From Candidatus Gastranaerophilales bacterium (GTDB lineage: Bacteria; Cyanobacteriota; Vampirovibrionia; Gastranaerophilales; Gastranaerophilaceae): a stretch of 64,000 nucleotides of DNA. Shown here piece by piece: positions 4,187 through 22,591 of the stretch; positions within the stretch are counted from its first letter, which is position 1, and every line of letters starts with the position of its first letter. The stretch lies in NCBI GenBank assembly GCA_944324835.1, contig CALUXV010000005.1, forward strand, positions 1-64,000. Reading direction: 5' to 3'. Made by a program: the position numbers and the translations under genes. The notes beneath the pieces were generated by a model. The model was given only the letters and a program-made list of their open reading frames with translations. It made no database searches and had not been told where the DNA came from.

Positions 4187-4993
4187 ATGAAATCTGTAAA
4201 AGAACAAGTCACAGAATCAAAAATATTAGATAGATTAAAAAAATACCCTCAGTGTTTAGAGTTGACAAAGTATTTGTTTAATGACCTTGAATTGCAGGAA
4301 TTACAAGAGTATGCAAATAATGTATCTATAAAACGTTTAGGCTATAATGACCACGGACCTGTACATATGCGTCAGGTTGTAGGTAATGCAATAAAAATGT
4401 TAAAAATTCTGCAAGAGTCCGGAATACAGACATCATTGGAAAAAGAAGAAATCGGGACTTTTGAAGACAGTATGAGCGCAATTATTCTTGCCGGATTGAT
4501 GCATGATTTGGGGATGGCAATAGGACGGCAAGGGCATGAAGAAATGTCTGTAATTCTTGCACAACCATTGATTGACAGAACTTTACTTCACTTGTTCCCG
4601 CATGATTTGCATAAACGTGTAATCATAAAATCTGTTGCAACAGAGGCTATTATCGGACATATGTCATCAAGGAGAATACACTCAACAGAAGCAGGTGTTT
4701 TGTTGATTGCGGATGGCTGCGATATGACAAAAGGCAGAGCAAGAATACCTTTATCGATTAATACTACTCCTAAAGTAGGCGATATTCACAAGTATTCTGC
4801 CAATGCAATAAATAGAATCGGTATCTATCACGGAGAAAATAAGCCGATAAAGATTGACGTTGAAATGTCAGGTGATGTCGGATTCTTCCAAATAGAAGAA
4901 GTACTTTTGACAAAAATTGATTCCAGCCCTGCAAAACAATATGTCGAATTATATGCCGGTGTTTCGGGGCAAGATAGAAAACGATATCTTTAA
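4187..4993 (+). CDS. HD-domain metal-dependent phosphohydrolase
   Basis: A 268-residue protein of the HD superfamily. Likely metal ligands are His56 and His60 (DHGPVH), the His106-Asp107 doublet in LMHDLGMAIGRQGHEE, His117 and a late Asp in IADGCDM. Residues after about 180 form a beta-rich tail not typical of nucleotidases. The substrate is unknown; HD proteins hydrolyse nucleotides or cyclic dinucleotides among other things. It starts at an ATG with AGGT about 8 nt upstream and is divergent from the tetR-type gene. Its stop codon overlaps that of the convergent gene through the palindrome TTAA. Confidence 0.8.
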   Translation: MKSVKEQVTESKILDRLKKYPQCLELTKYLFNDLELQELQEYANNVSIKRLGYNDHGPVHMRQVVGNAIKMLKILQESGIQTSLEKEEIGTFEDSMSAIILAGLMHDLGMAIGRQGHEEMSVILAQPLIDRTLLHLFPHDLHKRVIIKSVATEAIIGHMSSRRIHSTEAGVLLIADGCDMTKGRARIPLSINTTPKVGDIHKYSANAINRIGIYHGENKPIKIDVEMSGDVGFFQIEEVLLTKIDSSPAKQYVELYAGVSGQDRKRYL

Positions 4994-6066
4994 TCAATAC
5001 TATATTTTGCTTTAAATTGTTTTAATCTATAATTATTTGCCTGATTATCAAATTTGTTTTGAGCTTTTTGTATTTCTTCACAAACTCTTTCATTCATATC
5101 TTTTATTTCATTATCTTTAATATTTTTAAACATTAATGTTTTATAACCTGCCGTCGCATTTGCAATAATTTCAGTTTTAGTTTTTTTGTCTATTCCATCA
5201 GCACTTCTCTGGTCAAGTAAGCCAATAAGTTCTTCTTTTGTCAAGGTGTGGTCATAATCACTGTTTCCTGCAATTTTGCCATAACGTTTATACTTTGTGA
5301 CAAGTTCATCTACATATTGTTGGGCATTTGCTGCTGCTTTTTCTGCTTTTTCATTTGAATTATAGTCTTTTCTTGGAATATAACCAATTGAAGTTTTTAA
5401 ATTTGCTTTTAAAACACTTATGTCTTTTTGATATTTTAACAGCTTAGAAAAATCCACAAACTCAAGTATTTCATCTGCAGTTATGTTGTTCCGTTTAAAT
5501 TCTGCAAGTTTTTCTTCCGGAGATTTACTCGGATTTATGACTTCATCATAGATTAATTTATCAACCATTTGTTGAATATCTTGTGTTTGTTTTATTATTT
5601 TTTCTTTTGCATCAGGATCATTTGCCAAAACAGGCCGAACATACGCAGAAGCAACTGTTAGTATTGCTTTTTGACTACTTTGGGGGAGTTGTGCCATGCC
5701 GGAAAAATCAATAAGATTCATAATTTCATTTAATTCTACCATTGAATCATCATCACCGTTTCCTTTTGCTAATTGGCTAGGGTTACAAATTATTTCATCT
5801 TGTAACTCAGGGTATTCAACTTCGACATTTGAATACTTACTTGAGTTAGGGGTTGGTTCTATAATTTCAATTACAGGTATACCAATGACAGCAAGCCCCA
5901 TCAGAGAGCCAAATAGTGCATCCCTGCATTTATGAGATTTTGGCTGATTAAATCCATAATTATTATTATTTAATTCTTCTTGAATTTCGATAGATTTATT
6001 TTGAACAACTTGTTCTTTTGTAGATTTTTTAGATGGAATAAATTTATAAAAAATTTTATTGAGCAT
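4990..6066 (-). CDS. Unknown protein with one membrane segment and helical domain
   Basis: I do not recognise this 358-residue protein. The first ~48 residues are polar and Asn/Lys-rich, followed by one likely membrane helix (about residues 50-68, ALFGSLMGLAVIGIP). The rest is charged and strongly alpha-helical, with two similar segments containing 'xFVDFSxLxxYQK' and 'xLIDFSGMAQL', possibly an internal repeat of a small helical unit. No catalytic motif is evident. The topology suggests a short cytoplasmic N terminus and a large helical domain on the other side of the membrane. It shares a 4-bp stop overlap with the convergent HD-domain gene. It is probably lineage-specific. Confidence 0.6.
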   Translation of the reverse strand: MLNKIFYKFIPSKKSTKEQVVQNKSIEIQEELNNNNYGFNQPKSHKCRDALFGSLMGLAVIGIPVIEIIEPTPNSSKYSNVEVEYPELQDEIICNPSQLAKGNGDDDSMVELNEIMNLIDFSGMAQLPQSSQKAILTVASAYVRPVLANDPDAKEKIIKQTQDIQQMVDKLIYDEVINPSKSPEEKLAEFKRNNITADEILEFVDFSKLLKYQKDISVLKANLKTSIGYIPRKDYNSNEKAEKAAANAQQYVDELVTKYKRYGKIAGNSDYDHTLTKEELIGLLDQRSADGIDKKTKTEIIANATAGYKTLMFKNIKDNEIKDMNERVCEEIQKAQNKFDNQANNYRLKQFKAKYSID

Positions 6067-19486: not shown

Positions 19487-20839
19487 ATGAAATTATCATC
19501 ATCATTTAAAGTTGGAATATTATCATTGGTTGCGCTATTGATATTTTTCTGTACTGTCCTTTGGGTTAAAGGACGTGCTTTTTCATCTGCTAAAAGAATT
19601 GAGGTACAGTTTAAAGATGTCAATGGAATGCGTCCGGGTTCAGCTGTTCAAATGATGGGGATGAGAGTCGGTCAGGTTGAAGAAATCAAGCCGGTAATAA
19701 ACGGCGAATCAAGCTATGTTCTTTTAAAATTTGTTATAACAGAACCTAATATAAAAATTCCAAAAGCATCAATGCTTTCAATACAACAATCCGGACTAAT
19801 CGGTGAGCAGTTCTTGGAAATTACACCGCCAAAAGTAAAAAGTGTATATGTCCCTGTTTATTCAAGAGAAGGATTATACAACGGCTCAGAAGTAGAAATA
19901 AAACTTGATGACAAATATTACAACGTAGGTATTGTTAAAAAAAGCCAGATTATGTCAAAAAATTTGATACCGGAAAACATGCAACCATATGTCAAAACAC
20001 CTTATGCATATAAACTTGATTATATAATCAATCTACCGGGGTTAATATTACCGGAATTTATGACCGGAGAAATTGTTTCAACAAATGATGGTTCAAAGTT
20101 AAGAATAAGACCTTGGGATAATACTCCTATTCCATACCCGCACCAAACATCATTGTATACAGTGTGTGAACCTATGAGAATTACGGACTTTTTAGATTTA
20201 CAATATCAAGCAGCAGCATCTTTAACAGAAACAAGTAAGAAAATAAACGATTTACTTGATGATGCTTTGATTACAGAGTTAAAACAATCAATTTACAATG
20301 TTAAAAAATTAACTGCGCAAGCAACAACAACTCTGGCAAAAACAGAAAAACTAATTGATGAATCAAGAGGCGATTTGGAAAAAATCATGGTTCAAGTCAA
20401 CACTGTTTCAGATGAATTTTGCAAACTTTCAGGAAATATCAATAGCATAATCGGCGATCCGCAATTTAAGCCGACACTACTTGCAACGGCAAAATCTATT
20501 AATAATCTCTGCGAAGAATTAACTCCGATATTAGGAGCAGTTGATGCGCAGCGTTTTGCACAAGACTTGAATGCTACAATGACTAATATCACGGAAATTA
20601 CAACAGCTGTTAACGCAATGACAAAAGATGAGAAATTAAAAACACAATTGACTACTACACTTGATAACCTAAATAAAGCGTTGTACAACGTATCGTTAAC
20701 TCTTGAAACTGTTAATAATCCAAAAGAAGAAGCAAATATCAAATGTATAATGCAGGATGCCGCAGTAACTGTACATAACTTACGTAAATTCTCCGATAAG
20801 TTGAATAAGAGATTCTTATTGTTCAGACTGCTATTCTAG
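19487..20839 (+). CDS. mlaD: MlaD/MCE-domain lipid-binding protein
   Basis: A 450-residue protein with one N-terminal membrane anchor (about residues 8-28) and an MCE domain (about 36-115) containing VQFKDVNGMRPGSAVQMMGMRVGQV and IQQSGLIGEQFLEI motifs (read as two segments). The region beyond ~210 is long, helical and coiled-coil-like, with repeated 'L..T...I..L' spacing, as in larger MCE proteins that bridge the periplasm. MCE proteins bind lipids in the periplasm and form hexameric rings. The AAGGAAT site lies 8 nt before the ATG. It is the third gene of the mla operon. Confidence 0.92.
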   Translation: MKLSSSFKVGILSLVALLIFFCTVLWVKGRAFSSAKRIEVQFKDVNGMRPGSAVQMMGMRVGQVEEIKPVINGESSYVLLKFVITEPNIKIPKASMLSIQQSGLIGEQFLEITPPKVKSVYVPVYSREGLYNGSEVEIKLDDKYYNVGIVKKSQIMSKNLIPENMQPYVKTPYAYKLDYIINLPGLILPEFMTGEIVSTNDGSKLRIRPWDNTPIPYPHQTSLYTVCEPMRITDFLDLQYQAAASLTETSKKINDLLDDALITELKQSIYNVKKLTAQATTTLAKTEKLIDESRGDLEKIMVQVNTVSDEFCKLSGNINSIIGDPQFKPTLLATAKSINNLCEELTPILGAVDAQRFAQDLNATMTNITEITTAVNAMTKDEKLKTQLTTTLDNLNKALYNVSLTLETVNNPKEEANIKCIMQDAAVTVHNLRKFSDKLNKRFLLFRLLF

Positions 20840-20851
20840 GGAGAAATTAAT

Positions 20852-21568
20852 ATGCAAACGATTGGTTTTTGGGGATATCCTCACCCAAAATTAATTGAAG
20901 AGACCAAAAAAGAATATCCGAATGCAGAATGGATTGATTTAGATATTGATTTTGAATATCCTGATAAAAATATACTGCCGGAATCTTATTGTAAAATAAT
21001 TAAAAATGTTATAAATAATACTGTTGCTTTAAATCCAATCAAAATCCTTGCACCTATTGGAAAAGACAAATGTGACAGCGGATGGTTTGCAGCACAGCTA
21101 TTGAAAGATATGGGCTATAACGTTGTTGAAAGTATCTTTGAAGAAAAAACCTATAAAAAAGAAATCAAAATATCTACAAGCAATCTTCCTTTGTACGATA
21201 AAATAACACAAATCACGGCAAACATTGTAGAAGATAATACGGATATTTCCCCCTACACCCAATGCGAAGCGAAATTTGGATTCTGGGGAGTTCCTCCGAA
21301 TGATTTAGAAATATTAAGATTATTTCCGAATGAAACACACGTCTACGGCTGGACAAGATGCGTAGAAGCCGGAACTCCTGCAGATATTGAACTTGAAATG
21401 TATATAGATGAAGATGTGCCGACAGTATTTTATTCTCAGGCTTTTTGTTCAAAAGCACAGCTTGCAAAATATCTTGCCGACAAATACAATGGTTTATATA
21501 TAGATATTGACGATTATGCAAACAATTCTATAAGAGCCAAAATTGAAGCATTTTTGAGGTTAAGATGA
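20852..21568 (+). CDS. Unknown protein with two GFWG repeats
   Basis: I do not recognise this 238-residue protein. It contains an internal duplication: 'GFWGxPxxxLx...xxPN' at residues 5-23 and again at 143-160, so it is probably two related domains in tandem. Five cysteines (47, 74, 138, 170, 199) are present, three in the second half, but there is no clear CxxC. No signal peptide or membrane helix. Its stop codon overlaps the ATG of the HgdC-like ATPase gene (ATGA), so the two are translationally coupled and probably act together. The gene lies 12 bp downstream of mlaD, within the same run. Confidence 0.65.
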   Translation: MQTIGFWGYPHPKLIEETKKEYPNAEWIDLDIDFEYPDKNILPESYCKIIKNVINNTVALNPIKILAPIGKDKCDSGWFAAQLLKDMGYNVVESIFEEKTYKKEIKISTSNLPLYDKITQITANIVEDNTDISPYTQCEAKFGFWGVPPNDLEILRLFPNETHVYGWTRCVEAGTPADIELEMYIDEDVPTVFYSQAFCSKAQLAKYLADKYNGLYIDIDDYANNSIRAKIEAFLRLR

Positions 21569-22251
21569 TATACTTGGATGCAGGAACAACTTATTCTAAA
21601 CTAATAACTGTCGACGAAGAATTTGACAGTAATTATCTTGTAAAACAAGAATCAAATAAAAACTATTATATAATTCCGTCATCAGAAATAAACAAACGAA
21701 CAATTAATATAAAAAAAGCATGCGGACATATGGCTAATGCAGATGAGAATGAAATAATTGCGCTTGCAAACGGATGTAAGTCATATATAGATTCAGATGC
21801 AACAATACTCGACTTAGGGAGTCGTGATGCTAAATGGATAAGATTTAAGAATAATAAATTTCATGATATGGACTGGAACACCTCCTGCGCAAGTTCAACA
21901 GGTGCTACCGTTGAAATGCTCTTAAAATTCTACAATTTAAAACGAGAAGATTTAGAATTTAATGATGATAAATTTGCAGTAACATGCGGAATTTTCGGAC
22001 TTGAAAAAATTATGGATGACATTGCAAACGGCAGTGATGCAAAATCTGCTATTGCAAAATTCGTACACGGAATAGCCTATAACGCCTGGAGTTTTGCAAA
22101 GAAACCGAAAAAAATCTATCTGTCAGGCGGTTTTTGCGAAAATAAATGTTTTGTTGATTCTCTTAAAAATTACTGTTCTGTTATTACTCTCGGCAGGTTT
22201 ATACTTTGCGAAGGCCTAATAAATTCCGATAAGGAACTCCTTCATGTCTAA
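21565..22251 (+). CDS. ASKHA ATPase of the HgdC/BadFG activator type
   Basis: A 228-residue protein of the BcrA/BadF/BadG/HgdC superfamily, related to activators of 2-hydroxyacyl-CoA dehydratases. Phosphate loops DAGTTYSK and LDLGSRDAK, and the adenosine motif YLSGGFCENK, are visible. Both cysteines that would bind the intersubunit [4Fe-4S] cluster are kept: Cys108 in NTSCASSTGATVE and Cys141 in VTCGIFGLEKI. This argues for a working ATP-driven electron-transfer activator. No dehydratase subunits are nearby; the coupled partner is the GFWG-repeat protein. Related activator-like ATPases also occur fused to or near other reductases, so the target is unknown. Confidence 0.75.
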   Translation: MIYLDAGTTYSKLITVDEEFDSNYLVKQESNKNYYIIPSSEINKRTINIKKACGHMANADENEIIALANGCKSYIDSDATILDLGSRDAKWIRFKNNKFHDMDWNTSCASSTGATVEMLLKFYNLKREDLEFNDDKFAVTCGIFGLEKIMDDIANGSDAKSAIAKFVHGIAYNAWSFAKKPKKIYLSGGFCENKCFVDSLKNYCSVITLGRFILCEGLINSDKELLHV

Positions 22252-22591
22252 TAAGTTTATCGGTAAAAACGGTGAAGATATCGCCTGCGAATATTTACAA
22301 AAACTGGGGTACAAGATTATTGACAGAAACGTCCATTTTTCAAGATATTGTGAACTTGATATAATTGCTTTAGATAAATCAGGAGTACTTGCTGCAGTCG
22401 AAGTTAAAACAAGAAAAACTGATATTTGCGGGAATCCTCTGGAAGCAATAACTCAAAAAAAATATAAAAATATAAAACTTGGGCTTTATAATTACTTAAA
22501 AGAGCACCCTGAGTATAAAAAGTTTAGAATTGATGCTATTTCAATAATATTAACACCTGCATTGAGTATAAATCATATTAAAAACATCTGA
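22244..22591 (+). CDS. yraN: YraN/UPF0102-family nuclease-like protein
   Basis: A 115-residue member of the UPF0102 (YraN) family with a restriction-endonuclease-like fold. Key features are GKNGEDIACEYLQKLGYKI at the N terminus, ELDIIALDK and AVEVKTRK, i.e. the E-x-D...ExK catalytic pattern. The cellular role of the family is unsettled. The gene overlaps the end of the HgdC-like ATPase gene by 8 nt and ends the long plus-strand run that began at mlaE. Confidence 0.88.
   Translation: MSNKFIGKNGEDIACEYLQKLGYKIIDRNVHFSRYCELDIIALDKSGVLAAVEVKTRKTDICGNPLEAITQKKYKNIKLGLYNYLKEHPEYKKFRIDAISIILTPALSINHIKNI

Follow-up and report, generated by a model that had tools for sequence, protein, structure and literature searches.

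What does an HgdC-like activator ATPase do when its coupled neighbor is a protein that matches no annotated family? We studied such a pair in a window of 64,000 nucleotides (positions 1 to 64,000 of contig CALUXV010000005.1) from a Candidatus Gastranaerophilales bacterium. An earlier note on this DNA had described the ATPase as an orphan and its neighbor as a protein with a duplicated GFWG-P domain (hereafter, the GFWG protein). We propose that the two genes encode a minimal system of two components, an "archerase" of the HgdC/DCCP-R type and its acceptor, which uses ATP to reduce a non-CoA target at low potential. We give this reading a probability of roughly 0.7. It builds on the gene architecture, the homology of the ATPase, the predicted fold of its partner, the conservation of cysteines, and the co-occurrence of the two genes. 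The features of the locus are:

19487-20839, forward strand: mlaD-like gene of an MCE operon, just upstream; a lineage-specific neighbor outside the system
20852-21568, forward strand: gene for the GFWG protein (238 amino acids), predicted to be a partner that has two lobes, carries a cluster, and adopts a BCR/HAD/DCCP-type fold
21565-21568, forward strand: ATGA, the stop of the GFWG gene and the start of the ATPase gene (4-bp overlap, translational coupling)
21565-22251, forward strand: gene for the ATPase (228 amino acids), an HgdC/DCCP-R-like activase (archerase)
22244-22591, forward strand: UPF0102 (yraN-like) gene that overlaps the 3' end of the ATPase gene; a co-transcribed neighbor outside the system

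The open reading frames confirm that the ATPase is coupled to a 238-residue protein by the 4-bp ATGA overlap, and a -4 overlap is found in most of the linked GFWG/ATPase pairs among the homologs. The mlaD-like gene ends at 20839, which is 12 bases upstream of the GFWG gene, and within the window the pair is flanked by an mlaE-mlaF-mlaD-like MCE operon and the UPF0102 gene. So the pair does lie directly behind mlaD, as had been noted, but this neighborhood is incidental and specific to the lineage. Because other lineages have the pair beside unrelated genes, we rejected an involvement of mlaD.

By its sequence, the ATPase is a homolog of the acyl-CoA dehydratase activases that belongs to a diverged subfamily, as it falls below both curated cut-offs. 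It scores 54.5 bits against the activase family TIGR00241 (E = 1.2e-14; the cut-off is 125.4), and at 31.4 bits it just misses the cut-off for PF01869 (31.5). Among the sequences in PDB, the activase of 7YYL matches it best (E = 4.7e-9), followed by HgdC (1HUX, E = 2.2e-7), and its profile matches HgdC (1HUX) with E = 3.9e-16. We also compared a structure model of the ATPase (pLDDT 89.8) to PDB using Foldseek. The best match was DCCP-R (7yyl_E/F, E = 4.9e-14), and the next were HadI (4eht_A, 1.2e-12), MbdQ/MbdP, and HgdC (1hux_A, 1.1e-10). Both its sequence and its predicted fold (ASKHA, nearest to HgdC, HadI, and DCCP-R) mark the ATPase as HgdC-like.

Like HgdC and HadI (4EHT, of HadBC systems), to which it is homologous, the ATPase has both of the cluster cysteines. 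C108 is conserved in 58 of 59 homologs and C141 in 57 of 59, and the rest are gaps, which bears out the claim that both are kept. These cysteines (in the motifs NxxCxxxTG and CxxF) are present in every homolog that has residues at those positions, including the outgroup (locus L151, from another class of the phylum). The earlier note also stated that all of the nucleotide loops are kept, and this was slightly generous. The loops are present, but their sequences are altered (DAGTTYSK; DLGSRDAK instead of the canonical DIGGQDSK; SGGFCEN instead of the canonical GGVAxN), and the C-terminus lacks the Q..GAxGAA segment seen in canonical activases. The changes are subfamily-wide: GSRDxKW replaces GGQDxK, and SGGFCxNxC replaces GGVAxN. 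Compared to HgdC and HadI, the ATPase thus has GSRDxKW instead of GGQDxK, a CxxxC in the adenosine-binding loop, and a shortened C-terminus. The CxxxC (C191 and C195) is kept across the subfamily, again including L151. C191, C195, and C204 are extra cysteines, as canonical activases have no cysteines in the adenosine loop.

The GFWG protein has no match in Pfam, NCBIfam, PADLOC, or PHROGs, and it is not recognized by NF040772 or PF06050. A Pfam scan of 43 of its homologs gave no hits to HGD-D (PF06050); there were scattered weak hits of single members, which were inconsistent. A profile of the 43 proteins had no match among PDB sequences up to E = 10. The GFWG motif occurs twice (residues 5-8 and 143-146), and when we compared the two halves as profiles, they matched each other (E = 4.6e-5; a score of 32, versus at most 19 in 60 column shuffles). 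So the proposed duplication of the domain is well founded.

We built a structure model of the GFWG protein from the 43 homologs (mean pLDDT 90.9, pTM 0.86). It has two alpha/beta lobes with four strands each, and there is no helix ahead of the first strand. In a Foldseek search against PDB, the best match was to MbdN of 3-methylbenzoyl-CoA reductase (9g87_B, E = 3.1e-7), and DCCP was also matched (7yyl_A, 4.6e-6; 7yzm_A, 1.7e-5). The matches to MbdN and DCCP have a probability of 1.00 and TMq of 0.55-0.57, although a TMq of 0.57 at 8.8 Å rmsd means that the arrangement of the lobes is uncertain. The other matches with E ≤ 0.001, to NAD-dependent dehydrogenases and to a TkrA model, have TMq ≤ 0.21 and probability ≤ 0.63. 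As modeled, the GFWG protein has the BCR/HAD/DCCP fold in miniature, with two four-stranded alpha/beta lobes.

The model of the GFWG protein matches MbdN and DCCP, and the ATPase matches DCCP-R in 7YYL, so the ATPase is not an orphan, and a view of its partner as unrelated is not supported. Rather, the two halves of the pair match the two halves of the DCCP:DCCP-R complex (7YYL; see also 7YZM). Similarly, the statement that no dehydratase subunits are nearby is correct by annotation but not in substance, as the GFWG protein itself has a dehydratase-type fold. The earlier note had suggested a structure search as a check and had named a match to such a fold as the outcome that would speak against it, and this is the outcome that we obtained. 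Nevertheless, the pair does not look like an ordinary dehydratase, because the helical domain of the CoA channel and two of the six double-cubane ligands are missing.

The missing domain can be seen in the size of the protein. DCCP has 383-422 amino acids, versus 238 for the GFWG protein, which lacks the intermediate helical domain. Residues 156-227 of BzdN and 186-263 of BzdO form an intermediate three-helix domain that helps to build the CoA channel (PMC11971306). In the model of the GFWG protein, there are about 18 residues between the lobes, where the intermediate domain of BzdN has 72. Given the absence of this domain, a CoA ester is an unlikely substrate.

To ask about the ligands, we aligned ten proteins of the DCCP/HAD/BzdN type, including YjiM from E. 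coli, and compared the GFWG family to them by profile. We took the numbering of the ligands from the study of BzdNO (PMC11971306), and we mapped positions in YjiM onto BzdN via the family alignment. The [8Fe-9S] cluster of BzdN is held by C36, C73, C100, C263, C293, and C327, and the [4Fe-4S] cluster of BzdO is held by C95, C128, and C380 (PMC11971306). In the GFWG protein, C47, C74, C170, and C199 are invariant across 106 homologs, and all four are also present in the homolog from the other class (L151). A full-length profile-profile alignment of the GFWG family with DCCP (hhalign) was weak (P = 0.018) and not informative, so we rely on lobe-by-lobe comparisons with column shuffles. For the N-lobe, C47 aligns with C78 of YjiM and C74 aligns with C108 (score of 23.6, versus at most 17.2 in 100 column shuffles). 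For the C-lobe, C199 aligns with C335 of YjiM and the terminal KIEAF aligns with RVAAF; this is the expected register but it is not significant (9 of 100 shuffles reach the score).

Via the alignment with YjiM, C47 corresponds to C73 of BzdN, C74 to C100, and, with weaker support, C199 to C327. These three cysteines of BzdN are the triad of the proximal cluster, so the triad has counterparts in the GFWG protein (C47 and C74 significantly, C199 less so). By topology only (the order of strands and helices in the model), C170 may correspond to C263. The spacing C47-X26-C74 is the same as that of C73-X26-C100 in BzdN, and the cysteines lie at the starts of the helices predicted for residues 48-60, 74-86, and 200-211. 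In BzdN, the helices 74:85, 103:113, and 327-343 likewise begin at cysteines (PMC11971306).

The other two ligands are not present: the GFWG protein has no cysteine at the position of C40 in YjiM (C36 in BzdN) or at the position of C302/C304 (C293 in BzdN). The region of C36 is instead a GFWG loop, and unlike DCCP, the GFWG protein has GFWG in both of its first-strand loops. In BzdO, the space of a lost subcluster is taken by Trp46 and the substrate ring (PMC11971306). With four conserved cysteines rather than six, a full double cubane seems unlikely, and the simplest reading of the conserved residues would be one cubane with three or four cysteine ligands. By its fold and its N-lobe cysteines, the GFWG protein is a member of the superfamily, but it lacks the six ligands that define a DCCP as well as the two component-D subunits and the CoA-channel domain that define a CoA dehydratase.

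Could the pair be a diverged but otherwise ordinary enzyme, a 2-hydroxyacyl-CoA dehydratase or a benzoyl-CoA reductase that acts on a CoA thioester? It has the same fold family and the same type of ATPase partner, but we consider this highly unlikely. The GFWG protein has 238 amino acids instead of about 380, and its roughly 18 inter-lobe residues compare to a helical domain of 70-80 residues in BzdN and BzdO (PMC11971306). The 2-hydroxyacyl-CoA dehydratases combine two homologous component-D subunits with an activase, while here the GFWG protein alone pairs with the ATPase. The class I benzoyl-CoA reductases (BzdNO/BzdPQ and MbdONPQ) include the best structural match of the GFWG protein, but the pair has a single small acceptor subunit, no CoA-channel domain, and one activase gene instead of two. 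We saw no gene for a second subunit, a CoA-transferase, or a CoA-ligase beside the pair. In yjiM-yjiL from E. coli (annotated as the DCCP:DCCP-R type), one acceptor gene is next to one activase gene, as in the pair.

Also, the window's genome encodes more standard components elsewhere. Nearly all of the genomes in our set of 38 related genomes contain a second, weak match to the ATPase, and this is a different protein, a canonical activase of about 340 amino acids. In the window's genome (G000), it is a 337-residue protein with a C-terminal CxxCxxxC on contig C17 (L152:4487-5500, reverse strand; 191 bits against TIGR00241). Contig C2 encodes two unlinked HGD-D-like proteins of about 380 amino acids (L154:5659-6807, reverse strand, and L153:4031-5164, forward strand). 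In another genome (G339, L188), the counterparts of the canonical activase and of the two HGD-D-like genes form one operon. Since a separate canonical activase and two HGD-D-like proteins are present, the pair is not the decayed remnant of a standard set that was lost.

Another small relative is TudS (4-thiouridine-5'-monophosphate desulfidase), which is a cut-down member of the BCR/HAD family with a single [4Fe-5S] cluster (PMC11971306). By analogy, the GFWG protein might be a desulfidase or sulfur-transfer protein of the TudS type, with the same fold, and the ATPase might have another role. We give this idea very little credence. TudS has one domain, while the GFWG protein keeps both lobes and has an archerase partner with both cluster cysteines, with which it co-occurs. 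No match to DUF523/TudS was found in Pfam. TudS is not known to need an archerase.

If the two proteins work together, they should be found in the same genomes, and the earlier note had asked for this check. The GFWG protein is present in 26 of the 38 related genomes, and the small ATPase (E < 1e-9) is present in those 26 and in G026. So, 37 of the 38 genomes have both or neither (26/0/1/11 for both, GFWG only, ATPase only, and neither; Fisher exact P = 1e-8). At many loci, the ATPase gene does not adjoin the GFWG gene, yet 21 of the 22 such genomes that we examined carry the ATPase elsewhere (64-71% identity to the window's ATPase). In a midpoint-rooted tree of the GFWG protein, these 21 unlinked pairs fall into more than one clade. 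Across the unlinked pairs, distances between GFWG proteins correlate with distances between ATPases (Spearman 0.79; 0 of 1,000 permutations), although shared species history alone could give this result. The exceptions are G058 (L110), with the GFWG protein but no small ATPase, and G026 (78% complete), with the ATPase but no GFWG protein; both may reflect gaps in the assemblies. We conclude that the pair is a real and co-conserved variant, miniaturized, of a known machine, with which anaerobes drive electrons uphill at the expense of ATP. Its retention even when unlinked, along with the matches of its members to the halves of 7YYL, supports the view of the pair as a small ATP-driven device for low-potential electron transfer.

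In a class-wide search, the GFWG family was found in 89 of 289 genomes, all from Gastranaerophilales. A phylum-wide search added one genome, from another class, in which the two genes are adjacent (L151); 17 further genomes of that class do not contain the family. So all but one of the homologs found are from Gastranaerophilales, as judged by the class and phylum searches; other phyla were covered by a scan for close relatives, and the range may be wider. We found no homologs in plasmids, phages, or viral contigs. The patchy presence of the pair within genera marks its function as accessory.

We also looked for a third partner, and no third gene is conserved beside the pair across lineages. 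The UPF0102 (yraN-like) gene is also found beside unlinked ATPases (L114, L117, L130, L131, and L132). In L151, an iscU-like gene (4265-4636) and a cysteine-desulfurase-like gene (4650-5384) lie just downstream of the pair on the opposite (reverse) strand. In two genomes, a gene for a pyruvate formate-lyase (PFL) activating enzyme comes only a few bases after the GFWG gene (L060:8711-9448 and L079:8707-9447; PFLA for L079). In another group of genomes (L041, L044, L054, L059, L066, and L077), a short gene immediately upstream, on the reverse strand, runs divergently from the GFWG gene and encodes a TSCPD domain with conserved cysteines (TIGR03905 for L041).

Some of these observations would fit with the pair being an activator or repair system, in which the GFWG protein relays low-potential electrons to a third protein that is encoded elsewhere. 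All four irons of a cluster could be ligated by the invariant cysteines, which would be more in keeping with electron transfer than with a catalytic site that is open, and the pair is beside iscU/iscS-like genes in L151 and beside pflA in L060 and L079. Against this, no third gene is conserved across lineages. FeFe hydrogenase does not track with the pair (it is present with or without it), and PFL is rare and uncorrelated with the pair. We consider a relay to be possible but on the unlikely side. The lack of a conserved third gene, and the failure of the partners that we guessed to track with the pair, lead us to lean mildly towards the reduction of a small molecule.

How might a minimal archerase/acceptor pair work? 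Activases are homodimers with one exposed [4Fe-4S] cluster and an ATP-driven hinge (PMC11574389). The ATPase would likewise be a homodimer, with one [4Fe-4S] cluster held between C108 and C141 of each subunit, and it would receive an electron from ferredoxin or flavodoxin. Upon binding and hydrolysis of ATP, it would dock on the GFWG protein and force the electron onto the acceptor's cluster at a very low potential. By analogy with the activases and with DCCP:DCCP-R, it would drive single electrons in this way, so that the pair would work like DCCP:DCCP-R or HgdC:HgdAB. In the acceptor, the two alpha/beta lobes would form a cleft between them, where one cubane-type cluster would be held by C47 and C74 from the N-lobe and C199 from the C-lobe; C170 would likely be a fourth ligand or an auxiliary one. 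With the ligands at C36 and C293 of BzdN lost, and with GFWG in the first-strand loops, there may be a small pocket lined with aromatic residues. The substrate would probably be a small non-CoA molecule or the redox center of another protein; because the CoA-channel domain is missing, it is probably not a CoA compound, and a new target, as had been suggested, is plausible. The type of cluster, the flow of electrons, the low potential, the reductase activity, and the non-CoA target are all parts of this scheme that we infer. In a more specific form, the pair would be the smallest known archerase-driven reductase, with two lobes, a single cluster, and no CoA domain, whose GFWG-lined cleft reduces a non-CoA substrate or a protein that is new to the superfamily. 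We put this form forward tentatively, at somewhat less than even odds.

ATP-driven electron transfer at low potential is carried out by nitrogenase-like systems and by the BCR/HAD/DCCP superfamily. The diversity of the BCR/HAD/DCCP proteins has been interpreted as the loss of one sub-cluster after another, starting from a double-cubane ancestor (PMC11971306). If our reading is correct, then an acceptor of 238 residues that lacks the CoA-channel domain and two of the six ligands, and that still has an archerase, would be a further reduced state in this series. Of the known electron-accepting enzymes, the GFWG protein would retain no more than the core, so it probably acts on a different target. 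The machinery would then not be tied to CoA esters, and the pair could serve as a compact model of DCCP-like chemistry. A conserved protein family that has had no name, from gut bacteria that are related to cyanobacteria, would also gain a biochemical function that can be tested.
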